DNA of 64,000 nt from Moniliella sp. 'wahieum' (taxonomy: Eukaryota; Basidiomycota; Moniliellomycetes; Moniliellales; Moniliellaceae). A program made the translations under genes and the position numbers. The notes beneath the pieces were generated by a model, which saw nothing but the letters and a program-made list of their open reading frames with translations, was not told the DNA's origin and made no database searches. Shown piece by piece: positions 257 through 60,346 of the stretch (position 1 is the first letter of the stretch; each line of letters opens with the position of its first letter). The DNA is taken from the NCBI GenBank assembly GCA_003971905.1, contig RSEE01000062.1, forward strand, positions 62,001-126,000, read 5' to 3'.

Positions 257-294
257 GATGCATGATGTCTGATGTCTGATGTGTGACGTGTGAC
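257..294. repeat. Heptamer tandem array, GATGTCT type
   Basis: Units of 7 bp (GATGCAT, GATGTCT, GATGTCT, GATGTGT, GACGTGT) follow one another and mutate gradually. This is a degenerate member of the 7-bp array family found across the window. Confidence 0.7.
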
Positions 295-995
295 TTTCGA
301 AGGGAGACGTGTGATGTACGATGCATGATCCAAATGATGTGGATGATTCATCGATGATCGATAGTGGATAACGGGCGGTTGCTGAGTCCATGCACCATGT
401 TACACCCGTTTACACCCTGTTCCATGTTACACCTTAATAGCTTCAAGCTTTTCATGCATCATCGATCATGTGCATGGTTTTTGATTTTTAAGGCTTAATG
501 ACTTGTCAATGAACGCGGTTAAGATGATTGTGCTACGTAGCAAGTCCGGAGCGCTGGCACGCGTTTGACGCTCGTGTCGCTCCAGCAGGCCAACCCAACC
601 TGCTGCACCATCCTCTGTGGAGCGCTGTAAGCATGCGATGAGCGCTGAGCGCGAGCGCTCAGGCTGAGGACTGCTTAATGACACCAATGATTAGATCGTA
701 AACATCAGGACAGTTGCACCCTCCCGTAGGTGGCTTCGGGGCCCCATACTCCCAGCGTGGATTTTTGACTCCGCATACAGGGTGTCTTCCTCTTCACGCG
801 CGTAAAACGGGACTTTTCCAAGCGTTCATCGCGATCACCGGGGGTGCTCACGGATCAATGTCACTCCTTGCTGCAGGCCTCGGAGGATCAAGAGCACCCA
901 CCGCCACATCGTGCCCACCGCCAAGGAGCCTGGCCTGGGCAAGTCTGGGCGCCGAGGCCCCCACATGTCGTAAGTCACGCGTGACGTGCCACCGA

Positions 996-1020
996 AACGC
1001 ATAACGCGTAACGCGTAACG
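996..1020. repeat. Heptamer array, ACGCGT + A
   Basis: The palindrome ACGCGT is repeated with a single A between copies (period 7), preceded by the variant AACGCAT. It fits the A-x-y-y'-x'-T plus one base rule. Confidence 0.85.
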
Positions 1021-1890
1021 CCTCAGGCTTGCGAACAACCTCAGTGTCTCAGCGCCTCAGCTCGTCTGTCGTTTCTAATTCGTGTCGCTCCGTACATTCA
1101 GGCGTACCCGCACCGCGTCACACAAAAATGCACGGTACGGCTCTCCTCCACAGGCCTTGGCGTGTCATTTTTACCTTGATCGATAAGATTAGATATGCCA
1201 ATATCTTATGCCAATGCGGCATGGGCACGTCTGTGCTTGGCGTGCTGTAAACTCAAATTGCGTCCGCGGGTTGTATAGACTAGACAAATTCCGAACAGAA
1301 GGAAGACAAGAGCCAACACAACAATTAAACATCCAAGCTTTTGGACTTCAACGTCAAGTTACCATGTGAAATTGGCATTGAAGCGATCGGACGGCGATAG
1401 CCAATCCCCTACTTCGCGCATCGGGGGTACCGGGTACCCTCCACGCCCATCGCACATTGCTTCCGTCCCCCCCCCCCGCGCCACCGCTGGCGTGATTTCA
1501 CAAAAGAAGCTTTTGAAGCTTGGTTCGCTCTCATATAGAGAAAGAGTATAACATGTGTATACAATGCCGTCTACCATGACGGTTATTCCCTTCGATCCCT
1601 ATTGCCCCTACATATAATACAGGATGCCACATGTGGAATGGGTCTTCTGGAGTAATGCAGCACCGGTCATCATGCATCATGGGAAATTTTTAAGGCCAAT
1701 TGGGCTCAAAATGATTGATTAAAGAATGTCGGTTTTTGAGGCAACGGTACTATTAGTGTACTCAGTCTGAGTGTACCTCGTCTCTTCATCTATCAGTACT
1801 CAGTTGTGTATTCAGTGAGTACACTAGTACTGACACCAAGTCACTGGTCACCGGCCGGTAAGGTCTAACCTTCGCTACACTTTACTTACA

Positions 1891-1910
1891 GTTACTAGTT
1901 ACTAGTTACT
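1891..1910. repeat. Heptamer array, ACTAGT + T
   Basis: ACTAGT repeats with a T spacer (GTTACTA read cyclically), about 2.9 units. Nearby, 1755-1850 holds scattered AGTACT and ACCGGT-like words in the same style. Confidence 0.85.
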
Positions 1911-2406
1911 GCCAAGCCGAGCAAGCATGCACTTATCTATGTGTGCATGCTTCCAAAAATAAAGTTTTAAAGGTCCCGGTCACCGGTCACATTCAACGAT
2001 CGAGGATTGTGCCCCAGTGCATATAGTTTGTGGTAATCACGCGTGATATGTGACCAAAAAACGATCTAAGACATGCTACTCACTTCTGAGATCTGACATG
2101 TGCATGTGAGAGCGTAGGTCTTTGTGGGTGCCGCCGGGATTGCTCGCACTTGACCCGTGACCGACAATCTGTCGACACGTCGTCCCAATCGGCTCGGCTG
2201 TAACTAACACTCGACACATGGTGCAGGCATGGAAATATGACGAAGTGCCATCCTCTTGCATCCGTTCAGCAACACCACCTTCCCCTAGTCTATGGTCAGG
2301 ATGAAGTAGTGAAGCTTTTCAAAAGCTTTTCAAGTTGAAGTTCGAAGTGTGACATTTGACACAGGAGTGTCATTCAGCTATAGCGAGCAAAACTTCAGGT
2401 GCACCG

Positions 2407-2441
2407 CAACGCCCTCAACGTCCTCAACGTCCTCAACGTTC
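2407..2441. repeat. 9-bp tandem repeat (TCCTCAACG)
   Basis: Three to four copies of a 9-bp unit, CCTCAACGT, end in an AACGTT palindrome. The period differs from the 7-bp family. Confidence 0.75.
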
Positions 2442-2647
2442 AAACATTTTGTTCACACATCATCCTGATCAGAAACGTACACATGCCAAGCGTCTCTGGG
2501 GAAACAATAATAGATGATTCAAGCACTTTTCTCGTCTCTTCGCTCGTGCCGGTTATGTTGAAGCCTAATGTGTAAATCGCTTATTGGAAGAGTAGAGGGG
2601 TTTTAGCGGGCCTACTTCCTGCGCCATGAAATTCATGAAGCTTGGTA

Positions 2648-2665
2648 CATGATGCATGATGCATG
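2648..2665. repeat. Heptamer array, ATGCAT + G
   Basis: Two ATGCAT palindromes separated by G and flanked by CATGATG. The same array type recurs at 5868-5894 and 56791-56819. Confidence 0.8.
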
Positions 2666-3072
2666 AAAGCTTGATGTATGCGAGAAGCGCGGCGCAATCC
2701 AGCGGATAACGGACACACCTTCAAGCTTCTCTGGCAAGCTTCAATAAGCTTCAATTACGACTTCTCAGCTTCAACATAACGTTCTTCAAGCTTCAACTTT
2801 CCTTCAGTGCCACAATGACGGTCTTTTCGGTTGCTCGCACCGGCTACCGGTTACCGGTCACCATGTACCTTTTGGACTTGAACGTTGAACCTGCCCCCCC
2901 TCTGTCGTTTAATATGTCAGCCTTTTCAACGCCAAGAACTGACATGCTGCCATGATGTCAAGCATATGCTGCGGAACAACGCGATCATCAATCACCGATC
3001 AACGTTCAACGTGTGCAACGGAGCGTTCACGAGCTTCACTATCATGATGCATGATCGTTAGAAACATTTTGT

Positions 3073-3104
3073 GATCGATAATCGATGATCATCGATCATC
3101 GATC
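3073..3104. repeat. Heptamer array, ATCGAT + C
   Basis: ATCGAT palindromes occur at 7-bp steps with mostly C or G spacers, giving alternating GAT-C-ATC odd palindromes. Confidence 0.8.
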
Positions 3105-3585
3105 TCATACCCAATCGGGCGTGCGAGCAACTGTGTCCGAGGACAGGGGCCGCACAGGCTGCTGGCAGATTCTTGTGCGCAGATACCACAGTGTGTGCTG
3201 CGTTTCTCTCGCGCAAGGAAGTTCTCGCTTTTCTTTTTGGTGGCCCCGTACACAGTTGGTCCATGCGCTCAAGCGAAGAGGGTGCCCTGGGGTGCCCGGT
3301 GCACGATGCAACTAGCAATACCCGAAATATCCGAGGCTGAGAGATGCTTGGCCGGAAGGTCCGGCGGAGTGTAGAACGTTATATATGGTAGGGCACCGAT
3401 ACCATCTGAGTTTTGGCGATATGGGGCACGAAGGCCAAAATGAGATATGGCACAACGGTCTCCTCGAGAGACGCATGACGTATGGTGCACTGCATGGTTT
3501 GGGTGCTGCGTTGTGTTGCATGTTGTGCATGCATGTTAGATGGATTTTCTCATCTTTTAGCATGATATGTGATGCACGGCGTGCA

Positions 3586-3613
3586 TCACATGTGACATGT
3601 GACAAGTGACATG
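3586..3613. repeat. Heptamer array, ACATGT + G
   Basis: ACATGT repeats at 7-bp period with G spacer (TGTGACA read across units), ending in a degenerate AAGTGAC unit. Confidence 0.8.
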
Positions 3614-3894
3614 CGTGTATATGATAGCGATAGCTGTACCACAGTGCTACACCCTGCTACATGCACTCTACACCCTACCACGCCCTACTACACCTCGGCC
3701 CCAAGTGCCAAGATTTGGAAGAACAAAGATTTCTTCCCGTTTCAGCAGGGTGCATGTTTCAGTGAGTCCGCCTGGGTCAGCGGGTGCGGCTTTCCCGAAG
3801 GCTTGGCAGGACAACAGAACCCTGGCGTGTTGTCTTGTTCAACGTTCAACCGTTCAACATTCTCAACTTATGAAAAGGTCAATTATATCCTTCA

Positions 3895-3946
3895 AAGCTT
3901 GAAGCTTGAAGCTTTAAGTTAAGGATAAGGCCGGTAACCGGTAAGG
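3895..3946. repeat. Adjacent AAGCTT+G and ACCGGT+A arrays
   Basis: AAGCTT copies with G spacers at 3895-3920 decay into GCTTTAAG. Ten bases later ACCGGT-like words with A spacers (3931-3946) start. Two palindrome types side by side argue for one generating process. Confidence 0.8.
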
Positions 3947-5752
3947 TCTAAGAGGCGCTATAAAGGCTGCTTAAAGCACGCAGACCCCAAGGTGAAAAGA
4001 ACCCAGCTATAAAGTACGCGGCACTCAAGAGTCCTTATGTCATCGATGAGACGCTCCGCCGGCCCAGAGGCCAGCCCCGCAAGGCAGCTCAGGGACCACA
4101 GCTTCACCATCATGAGTTAAGCGAAGTATCAATGTGGTTGGAAGGGAGGTGTGAAGTCCACACGCACTGCAAACGCCCGAGGGAAGAGAGGTATCCATCG
4201 GGCTCTTTGCATATGGTGCGAAGCCTGAAGCTGACTAGTGAGGGTCAATTGATAAGGATTTTTTGTTGGCTATGTGCATATATACACATGTGTGAGAAGT
4301 ATGACAGAGAGTCACCCCGATCGAGACAGCTAAAATAATCTACTTCTCGTTCGCCATCTCTTCGCGTAATCGCGACTCTCACATCAAACCGGCAACCCCG
4401 TTAACATATCCGCATTAATAGGCTAAATTGTATATAGAACTTCAATTAGGGACGAACAAAAGCTGCTCCCGCGGGGCTGGCTCAGCGCTCATCGATCATC
4501 CCGCATATGTCGCCCCAACCCAACCAAAAGGTGTTATATATAGTGGTGTTGCCAGTATATGCCAATACTTCCGAATACATAGTCAGTCGCTTAGAAACTG
4601 GATTTTTATATAGCGCGAGCTGAGACGAATGAGCGTGGTAGACACACGAAGCGATGAACGTTGAACCATCTTCAATGAAACTCTTCTTCAGAGTAAGATT
4701 CTTCCAATTCTCAAAGATCTTGTTGGCAGTCTTGTTCGTGACATAGTACACCTACGTGTTGCCATGACAACATAGGGGGAAGACAATCTCTGAGCGTGCC
4801 CCTGATACTTTTTCATGTAATAACATTCTGCTATCTCCAACGTTCGATTCAGCACCTTTCCCACGGTTCCACTAGCGTTGCCGTCTCATCATATATTCCA
4901 CCTTCGGGTACGCAACATTGATCCCATTTAGTACTTGTATACTCGAAAGTTCTCCATATACTGCGTGGCCCACCTACACATCCCTAATTATCCTAAAGCT
5001 CCTGGTCGTCCCACCCTGGCTCACTCGGTAGCGCTACACATCGCCCAGTCCCCCTGTATCATGGCTCCTACTCATCCACTCCGGAACCGGCTCACTGTTG
5101 AGATTATGTCATCCCGGATGGAGCGCGCAATTTTGAGGACCGTCATCCGTATGCGACCTCGTGCAACGCCTCCGCAATTTGGACTGGGTGAGAAGTTCAG
5201 ACCAATATGGACTCCAACAATGATCTCAATCCACATTGGAACACTTTTTCTGCGCTAGGAACTCCACAGAGCGCATGTGTGGCCCTGAAGACCAATTTGA
5301 GTTGACCCTGTTTTTCGGTGAACTCGAGGCACTTGGACCTGGCGTCGAAGAAAGCAAAGTGTATGGTTGAACGCATTTGCTGTGCTCACAATCACATTGC
5401 CATCCGCCGCATTGAGGTACTTGAGTATAGGTCTTTTTGGTCATTCTCATTTTACATCTTCCAGCCGCTCGGGCACTGGGTTGAAAACGCGTTCACCGTG
5501 CACGCGTCCGTGCGAGCCGCGAAAGATTTGGGATCTAACAGCTCAAGCATCCTATTGCACAGTTAATCCAAGTCGCTCACTCGCTCACTCGCTCGCTCGG
5601 CCATCAGCGCTCTCGTCTGTTCGGACACAAAAAGCAATGAAGTGCTCGCGGCGTTTTCAAGCCACAATCCGCCAACAAGGATGAAGCTTGAAGTTATGTA
5701 AAGCGACCGGTGACCGGAGTATTATTGGCGTGGTCGATAACCGAATCGATCA

Positions 5753-5834
5753 CCAGTCACCGGTCACCAGCTATCGAAAAGCTGGTCACCGGTCAGTACT
5801 CAGTAGTCATAGTCACTAGTCACTGGTCACCGGG
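5753..5834. repeat. Mixed ACCGGT / AGTACT / ACTAGT array
   Basis: A run of period-7 units switches palindrome several times: GGTCACC units (ACCGGT + C), then AGTACT + C, then AGTCACT units (ACTAGT + C), then back to ACCGGT. Confidence 0.85.
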
Positions 5835-5867
5835 GTAATGTGTGCATGTGGCTTGTGATGGTGTGAC

Positions 5868-5894
5868 ATCATGCATCATGCATTATGCATCATG
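5868..5894. repeat. Heptamer array, ATGCAT + C/T
   Basis: Three ATGCAT palindromes at 7-bp period with spacers C and T. Confidence 0.85.
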
Positions 5895-6160
5895 CCACTG
5901 CAAAATGACTGTGGGGCCTGGGGGCGCATATCCCGCCCTGCTCTGGCCTCCGGGCGTATACGGGATGTCCACAATGTCCAACGCTGGGCTTGAGACTGGA
6001 AACGTATGAACGGGCAATATGGTCGGCCTCAGCGCCTCAGCCTGAGGCCTGAAGCCTTGGCATCTCGGCGCCGGTGATGTCACATGGCACAACTAAATGG
6101 CACACATGCCTCTTCAGCGTCTCAGCATGCCACCTCAAGCTCCAACTTGAAGCTTCAAGG

Positions 6161-9100
6161 CCTCCACATTCTATCTTGCGCTCATCTCGATCGATCCGGT
6201 AATCATAAAAAGCACCTTCTCGCTCGGCCTCTCCTCGAAGCAGTGCTCATCAACCTGTGACCGCTGAGCTCACTTTTGCCAGCGCTCAAATGTTCCTACG
6301 CCTGTGGGACCTAATATAAGAATCAGGCCTGAATATCCTGAATCATGAATACTAAGTCCACCGCAGTGAAGGATCGCTCCTGGTGCCTCACAGCCACTGT
6401 CAACGTGTCAACCAAAACCTTCTTGATAACGGCAAAAGTTTCCAGCTGTGTCGTATATATGCTTCTGGATGATATGCTTTTCATGAAGCATTATGGACTG
6501 CCAGGGAGCGAGAGAGAAACAATCTGTTTCTCACAGTTGGAAAACACATATAATAGTAACCCAAAAGAGCACGCCCTCAGCCTGTTCCTCTTCCTCTCCC
6601 TCCCCTGTTTTTGTAGATGACGAAACTTTTGAATGACTACTATATAAGGCAGGTGAGGCCCTGATGCCTGATGCCCCCTCTTTGTCTCCACGCGCGCATT
6701 TTCCCTCTTTCTATGCTCCACGCAAAAGCCTTCAGGGTGCAGGGACCAAATGTTCTCTGTCCATGAGGTAAAGCCACCATTCGCACGCGGTCTTTGTTGC
6801 ACAAATGTATAGTACTATACACCGACACACATGCGTCGAACGTTGTAGTTCGCACTTAGATCAATTTAGTTGTACTGTCCTCGGATATCAGACGCAAAAC
6901 CAGCATAATCGAATACATTTTCACTGAAGGGGAAACGGTGGCAATGGAGGTCAAAGAGACAAGAGTACGAGAGGCTTTCCAAAGGAAAAGCCTGTGTGGA
7001 CAACAGGTCTGATCCGGTGGCCGTAAATTATCTCGGGAAAGCTACAGCAAAACGGTCTCCAATGTAGCCATGGATGCACATAGGGCTAGAGGCTATGCAG
7101 GCAAGACGACTAGGCCAACTATAGGAAGTGTGTTCCCCCTTCCCCCTCTCTCTATGTAGAGTACTGACATAATGCGATGCAGACGGTGTCTGGTGACGCA
7201 TTTGATGCATATAATTGTGCAAGAAGTCAAAAGGAAATTCAATGATGCACATTTGTGCATCAGGGGGATTGAAATGCTCGGGTCAATGTCGATGTACAGC
7301 AAGAGGTCTTTCGACTGAGACGAAGATACTTGTCAAAACATGCCAGTATGGGCGCTGTGGACCTTCGCCAGTGAGCGCCAAGAGCATAGTTGGAGCTTCG
7401 GGCGCTCTCAGTCATAGGCTTCCTCATATCCGCTAGCAACTGGCAGTGTGTGGTTCCCCCGGGCGGAAATCCAACATTTGAGACCCGCCCCATTCTGGAA
7501 TCCTCGGCTATTGTGTTCGCTTCGGCTGTCTTCTTTTCTAACTCCCTTTCATTCCCTCCTTCTCTCTACGCTCTATTCTCTACTTCTACTCTTCACCAGC
7601 AACCAATCATTATCGATGATTCATCTAACCTCTGCTCTTGATTGCCATTTTACTTGGCATCAGCGGGGTTTGTGGCAGTAGTGTGATCGACCCTCTCCGG
7701 CTCACCTGAACGGAAAACGCGTTCGGTTTACCGCATTTTCTCTCTCGCGGCACGATAACCATTGCTGGGGAGGAGGGCCCCTTTGTATGCTTTGACAATG
7801 TTGCTCTCCAGATTGTTCTACACTGGAAATAATGGTTTGCTGGAACATATCTTTCCAATGACGCTGGCCCCCTTTCTTAAATCTCGTCCCACCTTCTCTG
7901 AATACCAGCCATAACCTCTGTTGGTGACATGTGGTCGGTAGCACCGACATTTTCTATCTGGCCAGCCCATGTGCCACTACCAGTGGAACGAGAGGCTGCA
8001 CAGGTCCCGATATCAGACGTTCCTCTTCTCCAGGCCCATCCCCCCCATTCACCAAGACGAGACGAGACCGAATACGACGCAAAGAGTTCGGGCTCGTGTT
8101 GTAGCGTCGCAACACTATATGATCGCACCCCGTAGGAATTTTCGCAACAGTAAGTAAGGTGCACAGCCTGTGTGGTCCCCCCATCATATGTGTCCAGGCA
8201 AAAAAACAAAACCAAAATATTACCGTGTTTTTGTCGAAGGACCAATGGGATCCTTATCTTGAGAATTACTAATGGTATAGGCACGTTTGAAGCATCCCCA
8301 AAGTACAATCTCGTAAAAGGAGTGATGTGGTGTGGCCTGTACAGAGGCCAGAGACAGCTTAATGAGGGTCGATGGGGGGGAACTGGCTCTTGAATTGAAA
8401 GTCCGGTGCTGAAGTACTCTTCGGTTGCTTCCGGATATCTCCCCTAATGTTATACCACATCCATGCGCTGGGGTATTAAGCATGGTGCTCCTCTTGGGAT
8501 CGCTAACAGGATGCGATATTAGTCCATTTGATTGTGACGACTAAGATAAGATGTGGGGCGGATGACCCATCTGAAAAGACAGGTTGTCGAGCCCCCTGCC
8601 TGAGCCTGTGCCCCCCCCTTTGCCTTCCTCGCCCCCGACTTGCTCCCCCCATGTGCCACGGGGCGATACTACGCAGCAGCCACCAGAATATTTCCGTTGG
8701 CGCCGCTGTTGGATATCGCACGCTCTCGGCTTCTGTTATACTAGCCGGTGATCGACGTGATCCGTGTACGCGATCGCGCCGGATTTACCTTCAAAAACCG
8801 ATGTGGTCTCCAACAGACCACAGCTTGGCCGTTTGCCTATTGTGTAGCTCGCGGGCCAACTTTGCCTGCCTACATAAAGACCCCCGCTCTGTACTGAGAA
8901 TTCATAGGGGGCGAGCAACCAATCGTCTTGTCCTGCGCCCCCCGTCAACTGGCCTCGCTTGGACTCAGCCTGGGAACGCGACCGCAAGCAAGGCAGAGGG
9001 GCGACGACCCTTTGGGGGCGAAGCACGCGCTTCGGGCCTACGTTTGATCCCCTTGTCCGGCGAGCTAAGACGGCTGACTCCCTCTCGGGCCATGTCAGAC

Positions 9101-11285: not shown

Positions 11286-13161
11286 TTTTGGTGTATAGTG
11301 CAGATGCTAGACCAGTAAAGTGGCGACGGACGCGGGTGGAGGAGAATCCTTAATTGGGGTGGGTGGAAGTGGATAGATGGAGAGAGTTGGTAAGCGTGAA
11401 GCGTCGGGGTAGGGGGGGGGTAATGATTCCTCATGGATGGAGAGAGGGTATATATATTCCCGAGGTGTTGCAATTAATGGAACCATAGGGAGGCCCGTGT
11501 GCGCTACATGATGGACGCCCCAACGCAGCACATGTTTGGGGAGGCGAGAACTGGCAGATAGTCGGCTATGAAGTTGTGCCACCACAATATACTACGCTGT
11601 ACCTTAAATGGCAAGTGTCACGATTTAAGCTTCCAGACCCCAGGCTTCGAGCCAGCTTGACACATGTCTAAAACGTAGCTTGACAGGTCGCTGGTGCATG
11701 TCATTAGAATGTGGGGAGAGATGCTATCATGGATGCAAAATGTGGGGAGAGATGCAATAAATGCTAAGTGCCATCCTCTCTACGATCGAAGTTCTAATAA
11801 GCGCTAAGCGCCCTACTTCCTCACAGCGCCCTCAGCGCCCTCAGCGTTCAGCGCCTCAGCACCAGCCCTCACGGAATAGCCGGATGCGCCCAGTGCACGG
11901 GCCAGTGTAGCAATGCAAGTATGCCAGAACGCAAGCGAGACATCGGATGAGTCTCTACGATGCAGACAGCGGATACAGCGGATGTGAGAGAGAGGAGGAG
12001 TATCGAGTACAAGCGGGAGCGGGTACAGGTGGTGGGAAGGCAAATACAGGCGTTGCTACAAGAAGAAAAGAACCCTTCTGAGTAGGGAAGCTAACTGAAG
12101 AAGACCTAGCCACAGAGCCACGTGGAAACACCAGGGGGGGGGGGAGGTAGATATGACATACACATTCTTTGGAGTATAGAGAGACCTGGCCCTCCCCAAT
12201 CGCAATTGTTACGGGGCGCTCTCTGGTTATTTTCGGACACTGAGCCCCGCATGTCGTATTAGACATCTCAGCCCAACACACGTCAGTCCTGCTAGACTAG
12301 CGAGAGAGAGAGCCAGACGCGACCTGATCTGAGTCTCAATGGAGATGTGGTTCACCGCTCGTATGTCTACCATCACGCTCATCCGTATCCACACGTTCGG
12401 CCTTGGGTATGGGAACGGATGGCGGGTACCGGAGGGCCCTGATCTCTCCCCTTAAGCTCTGTCAATGATATATGGTTACAGTATAGAGATGAACAAAGGG
12501 GAAAGGGAAGAGCGAGATATCTAGGGGGTGCACAGGGACTTGAGCGCTTGAGCGACGACAGCTTCTCAATCCTGCAATCCGTCGACATCACTTTTGCGAG
12601 ACGCGAGGAATAGGGAAGGACGTAGCGACGAGGCCGAGGGGCAGTCTTGCGCAAAACACGGTGCTTGCTCCTCCATGTCGCACTCGATTGCGGGCACAGT
12701 CTGGCCTGGTGGACAGGACGTCGCTACGCCAGGACATGGGGGGATGCGGGTGGGGTGGGTGGGCGGCCAGCTGGTGAGCAAGCGAGGATCACGTGCGGGT
12801 GCTGCCTGAAAGCGCGTGTTGGGGTCAACGTTTAACGCAGGACGCACTAGGGTTAGCCGTCTGTGCTGCAGTTGGGCTGGGGCGCATGTACTTTCACGGG
12901 GTTGGGTTAATGCAACGCCGCTCACTCGCCCCGTGCAGCGTGCGGGCGGTGGCACGGGGACAGTGGCCGGTGGAGTGCCAGTGTGTGGCTGCCGAGTGCC
13001 GTGCTGTCCGAGGCTGGGCGGCAGACACGCGTTATGCTTCCCGCGTTGCTCGCGGCCGCCTGTGACATGTGATGGCACGGACATGTCAATCATATCAATA
13101 CCAACCCCATATCCGTCGCAGTGCTCACTGGCTTCACTCGCTTCCCTCCCCCTCCCCCGCC
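11286..13161. other. Intergenic between SDR and hydrolase
   Basis: Divergent promoter region of about 1.9 kb. It contains CAGCGCC-type short repeats at 11825-11860 and some G runs, but no recognisable gene. Minus-strand frames around 11955-12654 lack domains. Confidence 0.5.
11449..11457 (-). promoter_or_regulatory. Possible TATA box of the SDR gene
   Basis: TATATATA lies about 165 bp upstream of the SDR start codon in otherwise GC-rich DNA. Position is plausible but not proven. Confidence 0.35.
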
Positions 13162-49050: not shown

Positions 49051-49106
49051 GTCACACGTCACACGTCACATGTCACATGTTACATGTTACATGTCATGCA
49101 TGTCAC
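49051..49106. repeat. Mixed ACGTGT/ACATGT/ATGCAT array
   Basis: Eight consecutive near-7-bp units (CACACGT, CACACGT, CACATGT, CACATGT, TACATGT, TACATGT, CATGCATG) in which the palindrome mutates stepwise. Confidence 0.85.
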
Positions 49107-49477
49107 AGCGCAGCTTCCGTCCCGGTTGCTGCTCCAATCGCAGTCAGGCCCCAGACTCAGGGCTATGTGTGTTCCTCGCTACCGCGCTACCTCTTCTTCC
49201 GTCCGCGAGATGCCGAACGCCTTTTCAGGCACAACGACGTCACACGTCTCAGCTCTGCGCAAACGCCGCGGATCAGAGTCTACACAGGTCTACGCAGCTT
49301 CGCATCGAGCCCCACACACAAGTCGCCTTAATGCATTATCGATGTTACATGTTACGTGTTATACACCCAAAGACCTTTCTCGCATAGCTAGTAACTAATA
49401 GTAACTCCCCTCGGACTCGGTACTCAGTACTCACCGGTCATCACCAACACCCCAAAGCTCGAACATGCTGTGCATGT

Positions 49478-49524
49478 GAGTACTGAGTGTACTCAACTGA
49501 GTACTGAGTACTGAGTACTGAGTA
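49478..49524. repeat. Heptamer array, AGTACT + G
   Basis: AGTACT repeats with G or C spacers; four consecutive GAGTACT units at the 3' end are perfect. Confidence 0.9.
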
Positions 49525-49777
49525 TCGACCGTTCCGACCTCCAAAGGGGTTTGGATCCCTTTGATAACTAGTATGTATACCCCCCACACCAGACTGGGCG
49601 CAAGGCGCACTCAGATGTCAGAGGGGAGTGTGCCCGTCTATGATGCATGATGCCTGACAGTCCCAGGCACGCGGCAGGTGCGGCTACCTCATAGACTCCA
49701 TCCAGTATATACTCTCACATACACTGCAAGCTGTCCAACGTCCTACTCTACTAAGTAGACTTGCACGTGCCCGTGAA

Positions 49778-49830
49778 ATCATTAATCATTAATCGTTAAT
49801 CTAATCAGGCCTCAGGCCTCAGGCCTCAGG
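49778..49830. repeat. Adjacent ATTAAT+C and AGGCCT+C arrays
   Basis: ATTAAT units (49778-49802) run directly into three AGGCCT + C units (49806-49830). Confidence 0.9.
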
Positions 49831-49882
49831 GAAGATGGAAATACGCGCGCGGGACCTAGTTAACCTAGTTACGCCGCGCAGT

Positions 49883-49900
49883 GAAGCTTGAAGCTTGAAG
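49883..49900. repeat. Heptamer array, AAGCTT + G
   Basis: Two AAGCTT palindromes with G spacer, extended by GAAG on both sides. A similar array lies at 50336-50355. Confidence 0.85.
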
Positions 49901-50004
49901 CCGGTGAGGAAAAGGCCTGGGAGGCCTGGGGAGGCATGAGACCTGAGGCCTCGGACACGGGCGCCCTCCGAAGTCAGCTTTTGACTATTGGTCCCCTACC
50001 ACAT

Positions 50005-50107
50005 GTCACTAGTCACTAGTCACTTGTCACTTGCCACGACTGTATTCGTCGCTGTGGGGTCACCGGTCACCACTCGGTACTCGGTACTCGCAGGTCACCG
50101 GTCACCC
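50005..50107. repeat. ACTAGT+C, ACCGGT+C and AGTACT-like arrays
   Basis: ACTAGT with C spacers at 50005-50032. After a short gap ACCGGT + C, then CGGTACT units, then ACCGGT + C again (50059-50107). Confidence 0.85.
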
Positions 50108-50829
50108 GTGTCTGCTGGTCATTCTGCCGCAGCCGGGGCGGGCAAAAATGCCAAGACTTGCATCACTGGGCTTTGGGGGAGCGTAAGATCGGGTAGAGCC
50201 GCTAAGACAGTATTTGTGGGGTATTTGGCTTGGCGCTCACCGATCGACGATGGCTGAGACCCGAGGGAACACATGGGTGGTGGCGCAGAGGGTGGGAAGC
50301 TTGAAGCTGTGACATCTGATGCTGCTTGAAGCTCTTGAAACTTGAAGCTTGAAGATGCGATGCCGGGCGGCAGCCTGCAACACCCAGTCGCAGATCTTTA
50401 CTTTTTGGATGCCACGAAAGACAGTTGCCACCGAGGTTGTCGGTCGTCGGTCGTCACCCGGTGCGAGCATCGCAAAGTGCCAAGTCCTACTTCAGGGTCC
50501 GAAAGGTCTGATTAATGATTAGTACTTAGTCTCTGATCTATACCATCGCGGTTAATGATCGATCACTGGCTCATGCGCTCATGAGTAATGGATTAATGAT
50601 TCATCAAGAGGGGAGGATGCGACGCCCATCTCCGCAGCCGCAACGACTGTTGCCGGACCTGCTCTCCCACCGTTTGACGCACCAGTGGTTCTTTCTTGAC
50701 GCTTGAGGCCTGACCCCCACTGCGCCCGTGCCTTGGACAGTGGAGAGTACTATCCAACGTTCACCATAGTAGGGCACGCCTACCGGCAGAGGATAGGACC
50801 GAAGACCCGAAAGACGATGGAACCAAACA

Positions 50830-50837: not shown

Positions 50838-50945
50838 TCAGGAATCGCTGCATGGATAAACTGGCTTAGAGTAGATCACCGCCCTTCTTCTGCCCTTTCT
50901 GCTCTGCTCCTTCACCTCTCGAACGCACTCCAATCCCGTCCCAGT

Positions 50946-52697: not shown

Positions 52698-53806
52698 ATG
52701 CGTGCTGGTTGTATGTCTCTCTATTACTTGAACTATATGCTCGTTTCCATATGAAGGTCCCTTCTCTATGTAAAGCGTGCGACGCGCACAATAATTGCAT
52801 TATGATGAAGAGTTGTGGCGTTGTTTGATGTCCTAGTACTGGCGATGGCTTTGCCTCTCCCTTCGACCATGTGACCGCATTTCCATAACACAATGTAACA
52901 ACACTTCTAGGCAAAATTCACGTTTGGGTGGAAACGCGCGTCATACTGATTCTGTCCGTGGCAGCCAACTCTCCAGGCTGTGGGAATTCGAATCGACCGC
53001 CCCTGTATGGCGCCGATATGGGAATGGGATTCTTTACGGGGTATTGTCTTTACAAATCATAGGGGTGAACTCAGCACGGTCCACAGGGGATTGGGTCTGG
53101 GCCAGTTTTCTGTACGAGTAATGATATCGCAACAGTAGATGGCCACCGGGCCTATACGGTCCGGCTTGGGAGGTATACTAGGGAGATCATCTACAGTCCA
53201 CCTTTTCCCATCGTCTGTGACCCCCTTACTCTCCTGTGGCTATCGAAGCCAGCGCGACTCAAAAGGAATCGCCAGATCGCAAGTGCTATAATATCTGTTG
53301 TCCGTGGGGTTTTCAAGGACCTGTGTCGTCCCTTACTAGGCTTTATGCCTGTCATATGGTGACTTTTGATACTCTTCCCCGAGAAATGACCTGTGACTAC
53401 ATGGCCGACAAATGACCACTGGGTTTTCGGACTTATGGCGTCGACCTTGTGTTCGATCCGGCTCTGTACAACGTCCGTCTGCCAGCAAGCCCGGCGGGAA
53501 ACGCACGAAGAAAGCTTGCACAATTCCAACAGCGTTCCGAGCCGACACTCCTGTTTTAATGAATCACTCGGCCACGGAATCCAAACGCAAGTCAATTGGC
53601 CAGGCTTGTTGAAGCGTCTTGACCCTAACCCGCTCAAAAATGCTACGAACACAGACGAATAAGTTGCTTAATGCAGCATAATTTTTGGAAAGGGTGGTGG
53701 TGGAACAAGCCTGTCACTGAGCACAGAGCGCTGAGTAGAGGCTACAGAACAACGACGATCTGAGCAAAGGAGCCACTGTGCTCGACGCGGCTCACCATTC
53801 CCAACC
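52698..53806. other. Convergent intergenic region
   Basis: Between the protease and eS25. Minus-strand frames of 70-150 codons (for example 53191-53652) show no domain. Nothing else seen. Confidence 0.5.
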
Positions 53807-54329
53807 TTAGTCCGAGGTGGCGCGAGTGTAGACCAATTGAGCATGGTGGTGAACCACACGCTTAATCTGGCCTTCTTGCTCGAGGTGCTTAATGGCACGA
53901 CGGGCGAGGGAGCCATTGATCTTCAACCGGTCAATCAAGGTGGACTGGGATGAACTTGAAGGTGGGCACCTCCTTGATGATCCGGTCGTACGTGGCCTTG
54001 TCAAGCACGACATTGTTCTGAGCCTTGTCCTTCACCTTGCCCTTGGACCACTTCTTTTTCTTCGCCGACTTGGTGGCCGAAGCCAGGATTGCAGACTTCT
54101 TAGGAGGCACTGCAAAAACGAGACTGGGGTCAGCTACCGTGTCGGCCCAGCGATCGTCCATCGTCGTCCCGCCACTTGGACTGGGGACAAGCGACGACCA
54201 AGGCGGCAAGGCGGCCTGGGCGTAGGGGAAAGAGGGGCACGGCGTATGCCCCGCACTGCGCTACGCGCAGAATGGGTTGTGCCTCTCGTTCATCGCCGAC
54301 ACCGCTTTGGATAAGGAGGAAAACTCACT
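53807..54329 (-). CDS. RPS25: Small ribosomal subunit protein eS25 (RPS25)
   Basis: 40S ribosomal protein of about 101 residues. Exon 2 (54109-53807) encodes [20 protein letters not shown], then [53 protein letters not shown] and a YTRATSD end, matching eS25 throughout. The start codon seems to be split by an intron: exon 1 ends in A at 54329 (CACAA, then GTGAGT), the intron runs 54328-54110, and exon 2 begins TG after TTTTTGCAG. Near 53947-53949 the frame breaks; adding TC restores FISQST. In a single-copy essential gene this is much more likely a read error than a mutation. Other copies elsewhere cannot be excluded. The upstream in-frame Met MDDRWADT would give an unnatural extension. Confidence 0.92.
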
Positions 54330-55907
54330 TGTGACCACTCCGGGAAATAGGCCTGGTGGGGAAGAAGAGCGGACTGGGCTGCCCACGACCCGGTAAGGTT
54401 TTCGCTCGGGCGGGTGGCGGGGCGGGTGAAACGTAGGGTTACAGAGGGTGACAGGCTCCATGCCAAAGCCATTGTTATTGCGCCTCTTCCGCAGCACCAT
54501 ATGCGTGCTAGGGTTATGCATGAGCAGCCGATGACTAGTGACTAGTGACTAGTGACTAGTGACTAGTGACTAGTGACTACTGCTGCTCCTTGTTTTCCGC
54601 TGGCGCGGGTTGGTTTACCCACCAGGCTCCTGGTTCTGTGCCCCTGCTGCCACTGTTAGGATGCTCGTCCCTACAATTGTCAGGATGACTTGCATTTCTT
54701 CATTTTGGTAGGCACTCAAAGCGCATTCGCTCGGGCTGTGAGGACCAAACATCACTATACCATCACTAGATCACTACTGAATGGTGCAAGCATGCCTTCA
54801 TTTGAACGTTTTGAACACAGGTGCGGCGGACCCCCATTCATCCGCAGCCCTCCACATCGCCGGCGGCTCACAACGATAATTGTTTTGACGGCGATCGATC
54901 AATATTCAATGCGCGGTGGCGGTGGCACAACAAAAGAGCTGTGGACTCCTAGCCTATAAGTGGAGGAGTTCTCAGCTGAGATTCAGCCCTGAGGTTCAGG
55001 CCATTCAAACCTTTCAGGGGTTCAGGGTTAGGATGGTTGGGACACTGAAGGGATCCGTCATGCATCTTGGGCTTGAAAGCATCTTCCAGCCTCGAGGGAC
55101 AGGCGACATGAAACCTGAGGATCAGGAATGAAGCTTGAAGCATGGGCCCATGGTGCGCGGTGCATGAGCTATGCGAACTTAGGACAAGAGATCATGAGAA
55201 GAGTGCTAGTGCTAGTGAACGTTGAGCACGTTCAACACGTACAGGCAACACTGCAGTCTGTCACATGAAGCACCACACCTGGGGCTTTACGCGGTACGCA
55301 GTACGCTTTATGCGCGACCGCCAATATCTGTCACAAGGGGGCTGGCTTTCTGGACCGGCCAATGTGCAAGCAGAGGCAGGCCGACCGTTAAGAGTGGAGA
55401 AAGACCACATGCTAATACCATACTAGAGGGGGCAAGAGGAAAAGAAAAATGCAAAATGAGTGAGGGTGGTGACGAGGGTTAGGGGCAGGGAGGTGGACCA
55501 AGTCCAGCTAAGAAAAAACACAAATACTGGACCAGAGCCCACGGATGGCAATAACAGAGAAGGGGGACAGCCCCGTCCACTTGACCGAGGCCGAGGCGTG
55601 GAGCAAGACATTGGCCCTAGGATACCTCGCGAGTAACGGGGGCAAAGCCAGAAATGACAAACAAAAGATAGCAGTGCAGCAAGTAGCATGTGGCATCTCG
55701 TCACCAGGACGAGAGACGAGATGGGAAGGTGTGGACAGATCTGATCTGGGTGTTCGACTACCGGGAGGGAAGGGGGGCATGCGCGTCCCGGTTCAGTACG
55801 CTGCCCAGACTGGAGATGGACAGAGAGCGTTGAAGCCAGAGAGAAAGCACCATGACAAAAAAACGCCATGGATGCATAACAAGAGAACCGGGGAGGAGGG
55901 GATGCGC
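54330..55907. other. Intergenic with perfect ACTAGT array
   Basis: No gene seen. It contains the ACTAGT+G array (54532-54579), GGTTCAGG-type words (54985-55035), and AACGTT words (55215-55240). A minus-strand frame at 55423-55869 has no domain. Confidence 0.55.
54532..54579. repeat. Perfect heptamer array, ACTAGT + G, six copies
   Basis: Six identical ACTAGTG units in a row, then one decayed unit (ACTACT). It lies about 200 bp upstream of the eS25 transcription unit. This is the cleanest example of the array family. Confidence 0.95.
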
Positions 55908-56626
55908 TTAGAAATCGTCGGCCGACAGAACGCGGTAACGCAGCGGCTTGAGCACGCCCACGTCGAGGTCGGCAAGCTCCCGGAAGACGCCCTTGGTCAT
56001 GTCGACACTAGACGAGAACAATGATGTGACGGTCAATATGGAGATCATCTCAAAACAGGGAAAGTAAACGTACCTGTGGCGACCGCAGCCAGCACATTGG
56101 TCAACAACCTTGGCGGCAACCATCTTGCCGTTGCTAGAGGTAAGAAGAAGCAAGTCAGTATAAAATGCACGCACAAAGTCACTTATGGTGAAGCCAAATA
56201 CGAACTAGTCTGGGGAGAGGAAAACAGGTTAGTGCAAGGTCGATGAGAGAGGCAATGAAGGAGTCAGTTGGGAGGGGTAGGACATACGAAGATGGAGCCA
56301 GCTGCCGCATGGGGGGCCGCCAGCGGGAACGGCAACAACCATGTCGTTGTCAGAGGGGGTGGGGCCGCCGCAGGCCGGGTTGTCGAGCTGCGAGCAAGAA
56401 GCACAAGTTAGCGAGCGTGAGAGACTGGGAATGGAGAGAGAGTGCGCACCTGGCCACCATAGTAGTAGGTGCCCTGGCCGCCCGAGTAGACGCGGTAGCG
56501 CTTCTCGAGCGCCGTCTCCGAGTGGCGGGCCTTGCGCTCCAGAGCGCGCGCCTCGCCCGAGTTGAGGAGGTCCGAGGCAGCAGCGAACGAGGCGGCGGCG
56601 AGAACAAGGAGGCTGGCAAACTTCAT
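55908..56626 (-). CDS. Secreted double-psi beta-barrel (RlpA/barwin-like) protein
   Basis: Small secreted protein, about 152 residues in the preferred model. Signal peptide MKFASLLVLAAASFAAAS; a basic pro-region with KR before YRVYSGGQGTYYYGG; then NPACGGPTPSDNDMVVAVPAGG, NNGKMVAAKVVDQCAGCG, SVDMTKGVFRELADLDVG and the end YRVLSADDF. Such proteins bind or act around cell-wall polymers; some inhibit cysteine proteases. Exons: 56626-56450, 56387-56288, a small exon, 56133-56074, 56007-55908. For the small exon, 22 nt (56204-56183) keeps the frame without any correction; an 8-nt version (56209-56202) or no exon would each require an indel in the C6 run near 56311. The ATGCAT array lies about 165 bp upstream. 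Confidence 0.8.
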
Positions 56627-56790
56627 CGTGGCAAAGAGAATGGGTGGGAGGGGGGAGGCTCTGGCTAGCAGAGGGCGGACGAGAGAGTGTGGTGGGGAGA
56701 GGAGATGGGAGAGCAGGCTCTCTCGCTGTTTTCTGGGCAGACGAGGGTGGGGAGGGTGGGTTGGCTGGGCTGATGCGCTGATGCGCCGGT

Positions 56791-56819
56791 GCATGATGCA
56801 TGATGCATGATGCATGATG
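56791..56819. repeat. Heptamer array, ATGCAT + G
   Basis: Three perfect ATGCATG units with partial units at each end. Confidence 0.92.
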
Positions 56820-57022
56820 GCGCTGGCCCTTGGAGCTGTGTGCTGTGGTGTGCTGTGGGGTGTTGCTACTGGCGCGGTGGCTCCGCGGTGGCTCGCGGCA
56901 GAAGGGCAGTGGGGCGCAGCAAGACTCGCCACATCATGCATCAAGCTTCAAGCTGCATGCACAGCGCTCATGCTCATGCGTCACCCTAGTGGCTGGCTTT
57001 GCCCCCAGGTGTGCTGTGCTGC

Positions 57023-57066
57023 CTTGAAGCTTTAAGCTTCAAGAGCTTTAAGCGCTAAGCTTTAAG
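57023..57066. repeat. Degenerate AAGCTT/AGCGCT array
   Basis: TTGAAGC, TTTAAGC, TTCAAGAGC, TTTAAGCGC and TAAGC units: AAGCTT and AGCGCT words interleaved. Confidence 0.75.
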
Positions 57067-57597
57067 GTGCGTTACATTACGCGTTGCGTTTCAGTAGCTT
57101 CCCTATTCCATGTGTTAGTGGCGCCGTGCGCGGTGGACCGAACAGCACAGCACAGCGGCGCAAGCGGCGCTGCGGCACAGGGCGTTGAGGGCGTTGAGCC
57201 GGTGGGAGCGTGTGAGCATGTGAGATGTGAGAGTGCTGCAGCGCCTGTGGGGCCGCCTGGGGCACCCCTCGGCCACGGTGGCGATCGGGAGGGTTCGGCG
57301 CTTCTCCGGCCACCGGCCACCCTTGTCCTCGGCGAGTCGGCGCACCGCTCGCAAGGCACCAGGGCAGTCGGCGATGTGGATCCGGGCGGTGTCGGCCACA
57401 GGGGAAGTGTCCTCTACTTTGAACATACTCACTCACATGTGATGCGGGTGATTGCGATTGAGCACTTGCGCGCGGGAGCGCTCTCCTGCGGCCGGCGCTG
57501 GCCATGTGGCCATGTGATGCGCGTGACACGTCACACAGAAATCCCACGAGCAGCCGAGGATCGACACTATCTCATCAATCATTAATCATCGATCCAT

Positions 57598-57625
57598 CCT
57601 CAGCGCCTCAGCGCCTCCGCCTCAG
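57598..57625. repeat. 8-bp repeat (CAGCGCCT)
   Basis: CCTCAGCG units at period 8. A similar repeat occurs at 11825-11860. Confidence 0.7.
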
Positions 57626-58078
57626 TATCAATGCTCCATTTGACCGGCTCAGCGGTGGGGGCAGGTGGAGCCTGGTGGCTAGTATCTAGTACCTAGTGGA
57701 GCCAGTGGAGCTACGAGCTCGCAACCGCTCCTTTTACATTTCAATGTTCCCTCATGCCCCCCTCGCCACTGCCAGTATTATGTTACCTCAGCACATTCGG
57801 CGCTCGGAATCGGCGTAGCGCGTAGACGGATAGCGCCGGTGCAATCATTAATCAAGTGCGGTTCAATTTCCATACTGAGCGCACGAGCCTCCGCCACACG
57901 AGTTCCAGATAGCAGAATCCAGATACCGCAAGTGATGCTCGCACAGTGATGTGATGGACCGGGAGCGCCGGCATCGCCATCCCTCCCATATTGGTTGCTA
58001 GCCCTGCAGCACACCCATCTGGCTCTCTCCCGGCCCTGCCCCCGCATCCTCTCTTAGAAACAGCACGCATGCGTCACG

Positions 58079-59530
58079 CTAGAGATCCTCCCTGCTCCCG
58101 CGGAGCACCGAGCGCACACGCTGCCACCAGCGCTGCCCCGAGCCGTCGGCCCGAGCCCCCCGAGGCTCGAGGATGTGGCGACCGGCGGGCGGGAGCGCCG
58201 TGAGGTCTGGTGCGGTCACTCGCAACCCCGTAACCAAGTACACCCGATCCTCTCCTAACAGCGCCATGCGTCCAGCTCCGGCAAATGCCATGTTAGCCGC
58301 GCCGGTGGGAACGAACATTTTGAACAGCGCCGCGCCCGATGCGCCATCGTACACTTGCACGCCGTCGGCAGTGCCGGCATACACACGTCCTTCGTCGTCC
58401 ATCTTGATGCCATCGCAGATGCCCGAGTGGGGCCAGGCGAAGACGCTGCGTGGGCCCAAGGAGTGGGTCAGGTTGCCATCGGGCAAGAGGTGGTGTGGAC
58501 GTCAAACGAGTAGATGGCTGCGTTCTGCCGTGGGTTCAGTCCAAAGCCTACGGGGGCCGTGTCGCACACCAAGGCGCGTTTGCCATCGGGGCTGACCACC
58601 ACCCCGTTGGGCACATGCACTGTATCGTCCAGCACGCGCAGCGCGCCCGTCACCGGGTCAAAGCTCCATGTCATCAGCGGCATCGAGGGCTCGGGACGAA
58701 AATGTTGCACATAGCCATACCAAGCATCGGTAAGAAGATGTGGCCCGAGATGGGATGAATCGAAGCATCGTTGGGCGAGGCAAAGGGACGTCCAAACGCA
58801 TTGTTGAGTAATACAGTGGGAGGATGGTGAGGATGATCTTTGTGTACGAGCGAGAGGGTGCCCGGGAGCGAGCCGCGTCCTTCACTAACGAGAAGCACGT
58901 GGTTTTGACCATAGGGAGTGCCGCCATTGATCATCTGGAGCGCGAGGGAATCCAGCGCAATTTGCACTACTGCCCCGTCGAACGATGCTTGCTGCCCTGC
59001 CTCGGCCTGCTGGGCCACGCGCGTCACGTTGGGCAGTTGGAACAAGGCGTTATTCTTGTCGAGCCCGTTGCGCCCAGCGGGCGCACCGGCATTGGAAGAA
59101 AACAAGAGGGTCTGGTGTAGAGGAATCAAGTAGGCAGATGAGCGTGGTAAGTTTCCCAGATCGCCAGTCTCAAGACAGCACACGTACATCCTTCTCGGGA
59201 TCGTATACGGGGCCTCGTGAGCAAATGCCCACCCGGTCGGTTCGCACACCAGCTCAATGATCTTGGTGTCGGGAGCGAGCAAGTCGGCTGCAAACGGGGC
59301 CTGGATCTGAAAGTGAGGGTGCTGCGTACTTGCCTCTTGTCCCTTTTCAGCCGAGGTAGGATGGGAAGGAACGAACGGTGGCCCCAGGGACGAGGGTCAA
59401 GGGGAAGAGGAAGCACTGCATCCTCCACATGTTCAGCGTGCACTTTCGTGGCCCAGACAATGTCCGAGGCGCGGGCAAGCACAGTGAAGAGCGTGCCGAG
59501 CGCAAGCACCAGTTGGGCGCCCTGAACCAT
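58079..59530 (-). CDS. SMP-30/gluconolactonase-like secreted lactonase
   Basis: Six-bladed beta-propeller of the SMP-30/gluconolactonase/LRE-like family. Signal peptide MVQGAQLVLALGTLFTVLAR (start chosen for this). Blocks in order: QAPFAADLLAPDTKIIELV; EPTGWAFAHEAP; GRPFASPNDASIHPISGHIF with TDAWYGYVQHFRPEP; VHVPNGVVVSPDGKRALVCD; GICDGIKMDDEGRVYAGTAD; GVQVYDGASG; and an end RVRSVLRGSREDL. The PND and PNG/CDG motifs are the usual metal-site loops. An intron lies at 59187-59112 (GTACGT...CCAG), and an upstream intron ends before ATCCAGGCC near 59300. One or two missing bases near 58725 and 58490 are inferred. Substrate unknown. Confidence 0.8.
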
Positions 59531-60346
59531 TTTACCACCGATGAAGTGGGCGGGAACGCAAAGCCCAATGGCCGCGCCGGGAGACAGTAAGGCAGATACC
59601 GGGGCAGGGAGTGGTGCGTGCGGTAGTGAGTTGGACACGGTTACTGGTCTGGTTACCGGTTACCGGATGACTGCTGCGTACGTCATTAACGTCATTACTC
59701 ATTGCCCGTGCAAGTGTCCGTTAGTACCGGTGAAGTGCACATCAGAATGGCGTTCAAACGTTCACTTTTGCGCGATGGTAATCAGAGCCTTATACACAGT
59801 ACTGACATGTCTCAAAAACTCAGTACGAACACCCTCTCATAATTCAGTGGAGAAGAGAGCCAACTAGCTGCGAGCGTTACATCGATGTTGCTGTATGTTT
59901 GAGAGAGTAGTCAGGGCCAACTTGGCATCCAAATATGGGCAAAGTAAAGGTGATTCTTACAAGATCGATGGCAGAAAAGACAGAGTAATCAAGGAGAACA
60001 GAGTGTCTAGTCTTTATAGGAGAGTATCCTACTGTTGGTACACTAAAATTGGCCAGCGTGTGTGCAAGGTGCGTAAAAAGAGAGAAAGAGGCGGGGAAAC
60101 AAAGCCTTAGGGGTCATTGAGACGCCATCCGTATCGGAGCCAACCCAAGTGCAAGAGGAAGACAGAACGAAGGAGGGGGGGTACTAGACAAACGATGGTT
60201 ACACCTGTTGTCACAAAAAACATGACCAGCGCACCCTGTTTTCATAGGGAACGGCCAAAGATCTGTTTTCGCATCGAGCTGGATAAAGACTGTAACCGCA
60301 GATGTTTCGTCCGTCCGGAAGGCGGGGAGAGAGGATCCCCTGCGTC
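59531..60346. other. Intergenic region
   Basis: Contains a short ACCGGT+T array (59651-59668). AT-richer than neighbouring genes. No gene seen. Confidence 0.55.
59651..59668. repeat. Heptamer array, ACCGGT + T
   Basis: GGTTACC units around ACCGGT, about 2.5 copies. Confidence 0.8.

Follow-up and report, generated by a model that had tools for sequence, protein, structure and literature searches.

Palindromic period-7 arrays in the genome of Moniliella sp. 'wahieum' as probable scars of a fold-back duplication of fixed geometry

How do many different palindromic hexamers come to stand in tandem at one and the same spacing of 7 bp? The question is raised by a stretch of 64,000 nucleotides from the basidiomycete Moniliella sp. 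'wahieum' (contig RSEE01000062.1, C62:62001-126000, of the 69.5-Mb, 223-contig assembly GCA_003971905.1), hereafter the window, in which an initial annotation made from the letters alone had described more than twenty intergenic arrays of palindromic A....T hexamers, each unit completed by one spacer base. The answer developed below is that these arrays are built from a 12-mer with a T-N-A (TNA) core, probably the product of a short fold-back. Counts refer to the window, to a 264-kb set (the window and twenty 10-kb samples, with a GC content of 58%) or to a 314-kb set (the window and 25 samples totalling 250 kb, two of them next to the window and the majority from the largest contigs), whereas whole-genome array counts are forward-strand places, overlapping ones included. 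Throughout, x, y, a, b and N stand for any base, y'x' and b'a' for the complements, and TNA for the loop triplet.

The window contains 23 exact tandem arrays, of two or more copies, in which a palindromic hexamer repeats at period 7, and 21 of them consist of A....T hexamers, of 11 kinds, which upholds the reported number of arrays; the two that fall outside the rule are GGTACC at 1426-1438 and GATATC at 48877-48893. Twelve array hexamers had been named, but the twelfth, AACGTT, occurs in the window as single hexamers between two TNA triplets (2999-3010 and 3837-3850). At a threshold of at least nine matching positions, 37 of the 72 exact period-7 runs in the 264-kb set are palindromic, compared with at most 5 palindromic runs at any other period from 2 to 20. 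The odd centre of the palindromic period-7 runs with at least eight matches is TNA in 45 of 46 cases (TCA 20, TGA 17, TTA 5, TAA 3 and CCG 1). In the 314-kb set a palindromic hexamer recurs at distance 7 in 80 cases for the A..T class, 4 for G..C, 1 for C..G and 0 for T..A, with shuffled means of 0 to 0.2 across all classes and of 0 for A..T; both the excess over composition shuffles and the preference for A....T that had been proposed are thereby borne out. Unlike palindromic hexamers, too, are adjacent at distance 7 far beyond expectation in the A..T class (28 vs 1.8), as had been noticed by eye, the corresponding observed and expected values being 5 and 6.0 for C..G, 3 and 7.8 for G..C, and 2 and 2.2 for T..A. 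Genome-wide, three-unit arrays of ACTAGT, ACGCGT and AGATCT are found at 344, 126 and 58 places, so that AGATCT, previously thought missing, is merely rarer; TGATCA, a reversed-pattern control, forms such arrays at 2 places, and TCTAGA, GCTAGC, TGCGCA and CGATCG form them at 0 places each. The period-7 palindrome phenomenon is confirmed as real and genome-wide.

The elementary scar is a 12-mer, xyTNA-y'x'-xyTNA or its reverse complement TNAab-b'a'-TNAab, with a duplicate-inverted-duplicate layout of xyTNA, y'x' and xyTNA. As the A and T of each hexamer are the edges of the TNA loop triplet, the grammar of palindromic hexamer plus spacer holds but is a by-product of this simpler rule. Clustered TNA 12-mer loci number 178 in the 314-kb set, against 1.2 expected from shuffled sequence (179 vs 2.4 under slightly different clustering and shuffles), whereas control frames in which ANT, CNG or GNC replaces TNA give 6 vs 2.4, 3 vs 3.0 and 7 vs 2.6, respectively, and bacterial DNA gives 3 vs 1.0 (150 kb of E. 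coli) and 0 vs 0.6 (100 kb of Sinorhizobium pSymB). Being 75-150 times above expectation, the 12-mers must have been gained at some time. Palindromic tetramers between two TNA triplets carry the same N on both sides at 271 of 336 sites (11.2 expected), a complementary N at 34 (10 expected) and another N at 31 (12.2 expected); in the control frames the same-N counts are 11 vs 9.0 for ANT, 21 vs 25.8 for CNG and 30 vs 34.2 for GNC. Ligation of self-annealing 7-mers into TNA ends was considered and rejected, for N would then alternate with its complement, yet it is mostly constant. At 123 isolated sites the repeat extends most often by two bases on one side only, (left, right) values being (2,0) in 24 cases, (0,2) in 19 and (0,0) in 11, with all others at 7 or fewer, and it is this ranking that identifies the 12-mer as the elementary scar; beyond two bases the flanks match at 0.28-0.36 at the third and fourth positions on either side, chance being 0.25. 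Together with the one-sided matching of flanks, the 12-mer statistics establish that each insert is reverse-complementary to neighbouring bases of its own strand.

As for missing members, which had been described as mostly all-A/T, 15 of the 16 possible tetramers occur among 270 TNA-tetramer-TNA sites, so that the claim stands only for TATA. This sole absentee coexists with TATATA as the most over-represented hexamer palindrome of the 314-kb set (64 vs 14 expected).

The geometry of the unit is narrow. With T..A at the loop ends, the shape with a stem of two and a loop of three dominates (179 vs 2.4). A scan of stems 1-4 and loops 2-6 with T..A loop ends outside those loci yielded, for stem 1, 29 vs 26 (loop 2), 11 vs 17 (loop 3), 16 vs 5.4 (loop 4) and 10 vs 1.0 (loop 5); for stem 2, 7 vs 2.0 (loop 2), 1 vs 0.2 (loop 4) and 3 vs 0.2 (loop 5); and for stem 3 with loop 3, 1 vs 0.2. 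Among other loop ends outside the TNA loci, TNG (23 vs 3.6 expected), TNC (14 vs 3.0), CNA (14 vs 5.8) and GNA (10 vs 1.8) were found, every other class contributing 10 or fewer. The unit, its TNA core, the stem and loop size, the mostly constant N and the one-sided templating by the flank are thus matters of direct observation. N itself is nearly free: in 64 pure 12-mers it is C in 26, G in 25, T in 7 and A in 6, close to background, and the four N classes range from 4.5 to 10.3 loci per 1000 background 5-mers; an apparent preference for G/C at this position was discarded, being mostly explained by the background frequency of TSA (S, G or C). Stems occur at 3.8, 9.8 and 6.2 loci per 1000 background 5-mers when they hold no, one or two G/C, and 14 of the 16 xy classes are used; TT and TA have 0 loci among 1165 and 754 sites, respectively, with one pure 12-mer with a TT stem appearing under the other clustering. 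In its loop preference, TNA first and TNG a weak second, the unit is reminiscent of the UNR turn of RNA, and by this speculative analogy an RNA or primer-bound intermediate is conceivable.

How the units grow can be read from their chains, which were retained if N was constant and every tetramer palindromic, leaving 162 homogeneous and 7 heterogeneous cases. The picture of intergenic arrays fits some of these sites; mostly they are isolated 12-mers, a single tetramer being present in 137 of the 162 homogeneous chains. These 137 continue into the left flank only in 46 cases, the right only in 45 and both in 23, and all 25 homogeneous chains with several tetramers run on into at least one flank. 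Each of the seven heterogeneous chains switches tetramer once; six of them obey the rule in the left flank and four in the right, where chance would give 1/16 for each. Both flanks fit for TCA-GCGC-TCA-TCGA-TCA at 4480-4500 and for the chain of TGCA then AGCT at 56932-56952; the left but not the right fits for TGCA then CATG at 33578-33603 and for GTAC then CCGG at 49422-49433; and neither flank fits for the chain at 452. A TNA bordered by xy on the left and ab on the right could grow both ways with N constant, leftward growth giving tetramers y'x'xy and rightward growth abb'a', and such growth in both directions around one spacer base would place unlike palindromic tetramers side by side. The view that a rule rather than one sequence is propagated is supported.

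The same flank dependence bears on DNA-transposon excision, which would leave a 3-bp TNA or 5-bp target duplication together with two element-tip or P-nucleotides. A short palindromic insert between direct repeats has the look of such a footprint, and N mostly recurs unaltered in the duplicate. However, the two inserted bases depend on the genomic bases beside them, and hence are not element tips; the xy classes in use number 14 of 16; P-nucleotides should also arise at the other end of the repeat; the insert is of two bases; and tandem repetition would need many insertions at one spot. We give this origin little credence, and reject its form in which TNA is the target duplication and the tetramer the element tips, since the tetramer follows the flank.

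Further evidence comes from C17:710-767 kb, which carries a second copy, 85-95% identical and in inverted orientation, of the three window parts that were queried (1-6800, 48700-50700 and 53500-60000) and which may be a haplotype or a segmental duplication. Two C17 pieces (L033 and L034, 8.4 kb together) were aligned, with 92.6% ungapped identity over window 1-6800. Differences in length at 12-mer sites between the two copies are directly visible. Three pairs are clean: TGAAC-GT-TGAAC at window 4655-4666 faces TGAAC in C17; AGTAA-CT-AGTAA in C17 faces AGTAA in the window (~1651); and TCAGG-(CC-TCAGG)x3 at window 49805-49830 faces TCAGG without CC in C17, five further bases differing alongside. 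In all three the short allele is the five-base word without y'x'. A net length difference lies within 12 columns at 30 of the 40 window loci compared and is lacking at 10, although three of the 30 are inside one large block missing from C17 and a fourth, 49343, counts only through its position next to that block. Gaps that touch a 12-mer make up 8 of 9 of 7 bp, 2 of 3 of 14 bp, 9 of 14 of 8-13 bp and 9 of 117 of 1-3 bp, while motif columns represent 11.2% and 19.4% of the two alignments. The 12-mers at 256-267, 1793-1804, 2085-2096, 2999-3010 (an AACGTT hexamer), 3837-3850 (AACGTT) and 49343-49354 are identical in both copies, and this identity between diverged copies speaks against an artefact of assembly. 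An exception to TNA is a 7-bp difference near window 389, where the window reads CCATG-CA-CCATG, a TNG loop on the other strand.

Many of the remaining differences are less tidy. The window is longer at the TAACGCG array of 1002-1020 (by 16 bp), the CATGATG array of 2648-2666 (by one 7-bp unit), the TCACC repeats of 5757-5768 (by 7 bp), the CATCATG array of 5867-5880 (by 14 bp), the CTTGAAG array of 49882-49900 (by 7 bp) and the AGTCACT array of 50006-50024 (by 7 bp), and C17 is shorter at the loci of 639-650 (by 3 bp) and 1668-1681 (by 8 bp). TGAAC-GT-TGAAC at 2879-2890 and the unit at 5682-5693 are absent from C17, in an untidy 9-bp gap and an 8-bp gap, respectively. Conversely, C17 is longer at 3043-3054, longer by 6 bp at 6041-6052 and has two extra bases inside the locus of 2784-2795; it also differs at the GGTCACC units of 50058-50071 and 50093-50106. 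An array-rich block of ~200 bp (49362-49578) is absent from C17; in the C17-missing block lie the locus of 49477-49488 and the ACTGAGT array of 49496-49523.

These comparisons also allow ordinary replication slippage of chance palindromic heptamers to be judged. Plain changes of unit number do separate the copies (2648, 5867 and 50006), so slippage probably adjusts length afterwards, and the other 35 of the 72 period-7 runs of the 264-kb set are ordinary non-palindromic repeats, which speaks for this rival. Yet the TNA class exceeds ANT, CNG and GNC by ~25 to 60 fold (178 vs 6, 3 and 7), and the clean short alleles, such as TCAGG without CC, would, if ancestral, offer no unit to slip. As a source of the arrays slippage is therefore very improbable, in line with the earlier argument that a single slipping microsatellite is inadequate, since plain slippage leaves the start of the arrays unexplained.

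We consider it reasonably probable, with some margin for doubt, that the arrays are the scars of a recurrent, geometrically fixed fold-back duplication, and from the observations above we infer a single-stranded fold-back, priming by a 3' end, an order of steps and, site by site, gain and not loss. A 3' end, growing or broken, that terminates in xyTNA would leave its template and fold into a mini-hairpin of seven bases, looped at TNA, gaining y'x' copied from xy. The frayed length of five bases would limit the stem to two, thereby fixing the unit size, as the next base is proposed to be still paired with the template. The hairpin heptamer xyTNAy'x' would be stacked at the junction, its 3' end opposite the next template base, and copying would resume on the template at x, making xyTNA again for a net gain of 7 bp. 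Because the hairpin end would already face the template, no second microhomology would be needed, and little match is seen beyond two bases. Repeated steps would lengthen the array, and the opposite strand of that TNA, bordered by ab on the right, would give TNAab-b'a'-TNAab. The same product could arise in two variants, from an unprocessed 5-base flap at an Okazaki junction or from a break immediately 3' of TNA followed by repair from the sister. A replication or repair process that templates palindromes, as the initial annotation had speculated, comes close to this best explanation found.

Several observations weigh against such a fold-back or leave parts of it unaccounted for. Same-N TNA-4-TNA sites that are not palindromic likewise exceed expectation (253 vs 126), for which decay of older units or other repeats may be the source. 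When all loops are counted without clustering, stem 2 loop 3 reaches 533 vs 40, but other shapes are in excess as well (stem 2 loop 2, 335 vs 140; stem 2 loop 5, 52 vs 3.0; stem 3 loop 3, 23 vs 2.0), and so is a mirror-image control in which no hairpin is possible (164 vs 47, 376 vs 111, 84 vs 3.0 and 29 vs 2.3 for the same four shapes), so that tandem repetition in general must be raised in this genome. Hairpin energy, considered as the cause of the loop preference, proved uninformative, since the parameters have the one value of 1.99 for every loop class and leave TNA unexplained; nor is there a preference for CNG and GNC, whose loop ends would pair strongly, so that Watson-Crick priming in general is insufficient. 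Loop and insert lengths are fixed, unlike those of known fold-back templated insertions. Continuation into a flank is lacking in 23 of the 137 single-tetramer chains, and untidy gaps (8, 9, 10, 15 and 16 bp) are common near arrays. Any one polymorphic site, seen without an outgroup, could just as well have lost 7 bp between its 5-bp direct repeats as gained them; when every 12-mer locus with its flanks was compared by BLAST with the sampled genome pieces to find further copies, spanning matches came only from the window and C17. Finally, family A polymerase (PF00476, which would include Pol theta) gave 0 matches in a six-frame search that may miss split genes, so Pol theta is not a supported candidate. 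A genome without a family A DNA polymerase would, if true, be odd for a eukaryote.

Which enzyme could impose such a geometry? A dedicated or lineage-specific activity that makes 7-base mini-hairpins at T-N-A 3' ends, leaving tens of thousands of scars of the same geometry, is a tentative idea, possible but well short of likely. Rather unlikely, in our estimate, is a nuclease or recombinase that prefers T-N-A with 2-fold symmetry and cuts just 3' of A on either strand, the end then being folded back and repaired from the sister or homologue. The requirement for TNA is indeed symmetric, N being nearly free (4.5 to 10.3 loci per 1000 5-mers), fixed geometry is typical of an enzyme, and the flanks are used about equally (46 left, 45 right); on the other hand, no such enzyme was identified, no search having been aimed at one.

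The location of the loci raises a last alternative, selected arrays of protein-binding sites with a 7-bp pitch. In the window 57 of 58 loci are outside open reading frames (ORFs) of at least 250 aa, which cover 33% of it and include spurious ones. But frameshift avoidance explains this location, xy and N vary freely, with x and y set by the flank, and many loci differ between copies, 30 of 40 in length from C17 within 12 columns. Selection of binding sites, an idea also raised initially, is therefore hardly credible. The loci are clustered at 0.25-6 kb and 49-50.5 kb, and the 121 loci in the 250 kb outside the window are spread over 22 of 25 samples, which extrapolates to an estimated ~34,000 in the assembly, the samples being mostly from large contigs. 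Elsewhere the pattern is scarce: 78 stretches of prokaryote genomes with exact arrays hold 81 TNA loci (GNC 46, CNG 35, ANT 0) and 13 stretches of such viral contigs (6 + 7) hold 19 (ANT 3, GNC 1), little beyond the seed in either case and at most 3 in any one contig examined.

The other loci of the window follow the same pattern. In the first cluster are arrays of AGTTACT (1890-1910), GATCATC (3087-3100), TGTGACA (3591-3604), CTTGAAG (3898-3911, within the previously reported 3895-3946, with a GGTAACC unit nearby at 3933-3944) and AGTCACT (5811-5824), a chain with the unlike tetramers CCGG and GTAC (5784-5804) and a unit locus at 1978-1989. The second includes a TGTCACA/TGTTACA array with varying spacer (49066-49091), an AATCATT array (49777-49790), a CTTGAAG unit (50341-50354) and a locus at 49641-49652, with an AATGATT chain at 50509-50530. 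Arrays of GCTTAGC (21412-21425), AGTGACT (33389-33402) and CATGATG (56792-56819) and a GGTTACC unit (59651-59664) are found elsewhere, as is the longest array of the window, an AGTGACT repeat with six ACTAGT hexamers at 54532-54578. Further unit loci are at 11798-11809, 13061-13072 (inside ORF 12810-14207), 31029-31040, 33623-33634, 33766-33777, 47984-47995, 54899-54910, 55129-55140, 57049-57060, 57577-57588 and 57843-57854.

Repeats of other kinds are present as well. An LTR-like (long terminal repeat) element of ~840 bp, starting with TGT and ending with ACA, occupies window 46991-47816 and recurs in L008, L009, L014, L032 and part of L011, the L009 copy being flanked by a 5-bp repeat, AGAGC; six copies read by eye contained no gained TNA 12-mer. 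Similarly, the actin-region pair L026/L027 has a TNA 12-mer in neither member; the genome contains actin genes, many of which match in separate pieces and which mark it as eukaryotic, and among the best 60 of 171 matches of the actin ORF are actins from a wide range of eukaryotes. An rRNA pattern found no match in the genome. A dispersed repeat of ~310 bp (window 53806-54115) has at least nine further copies at 85-90% identity besides C17, and a 9-bp repeat of the CAACGTCCT type (window 2404-2439) matches a longer array at C6:94443-94637. Tandem repeats unrelated to the rule, among those listed, are at window 33066-33185, 35666-35728 and 16206-16345, their types being AGGTGGGGG 9-mers, a 12-bp array and a GAGGCA hexamer array.

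Break junctions of variable length are the usual evidence for fold-back templating; the present genome supplies, by extrapolation, more than 30,000 loci of uniform geometry, and their sequence rule, TNA plus a two-base stem, is sharp enough to seek the responsible enzyme by. The genome also suggests a route from unique sequence to palindrome-rich tandem arrays and intergenic length variation that requires no pre-existing repeat, and it opens to experiment the question of why T..A, five bases and two bases are invariant.

Among known systems, the short tandemly repeated repetitive (STRR) heptamers of cyanobacteria are 7-bp tandem units of a few fixed sequences that are not known to follow the present rule, and in ab initio palindromic DNA synthesis polymerases make palindromic repeats in vitro by hairpin elongation. 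Among the titles and starts of abstracts listed from the open-access literature, none described the present grammar, which is not proof of absence. Stem-loop synthesis by Pol theta can fold back from two terminal base pairs, with loops of 6 nt favoured in Drosophila (as cited in PMC11292364), and fold-back inversions involving Pol delta and non-homologous end joining in yeast start from 2 bp upward, with a 41-nt loop (PMC11724301). According to the passages available from these papers, a 3' end there likewise copies the bases behind it and leaves a short inverted copy; loop and insert lengths vary, however, whereas here they are 3 and 2 with a TNA loop, a five-base direct repeat follows, and the extrapolated number of loci is in the tens of thousands. 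Small inverted triplications (SIT) of FEN1/rad27 mutants, for which end fold-back is among the origins proposed by the authors, share the duplicate-inverted-duplicate order of parts, but have medians of 148, 160 and 148 bp, 30-bp spacers and 6-bp reverse-complementary junctions (PMC13334657); in the 12-mers the parts are 5, 2 and 5 bp with a three-base TNA loop and at most one T:A pair, so that the hallmark of ~6 bp of inverted junction homology with a ~30-bp spacer is missing. The same passages of PMC11292364, PMC11724301 and PMC13334657 report neither a fixed quantum nor a TNA loop. Quasi-palindrome mutations, as outlined in parts of PMC3820800 and PMC8604942, make an inverted repeat more perfect by template switching, and to that extent are alike, but they need an existing imperfect repeat, while here the palindrome has no counterpart in the short allele. 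Set beside these systems, the scars are probably a mutation of the fold-back type, unusually regular and abundant.

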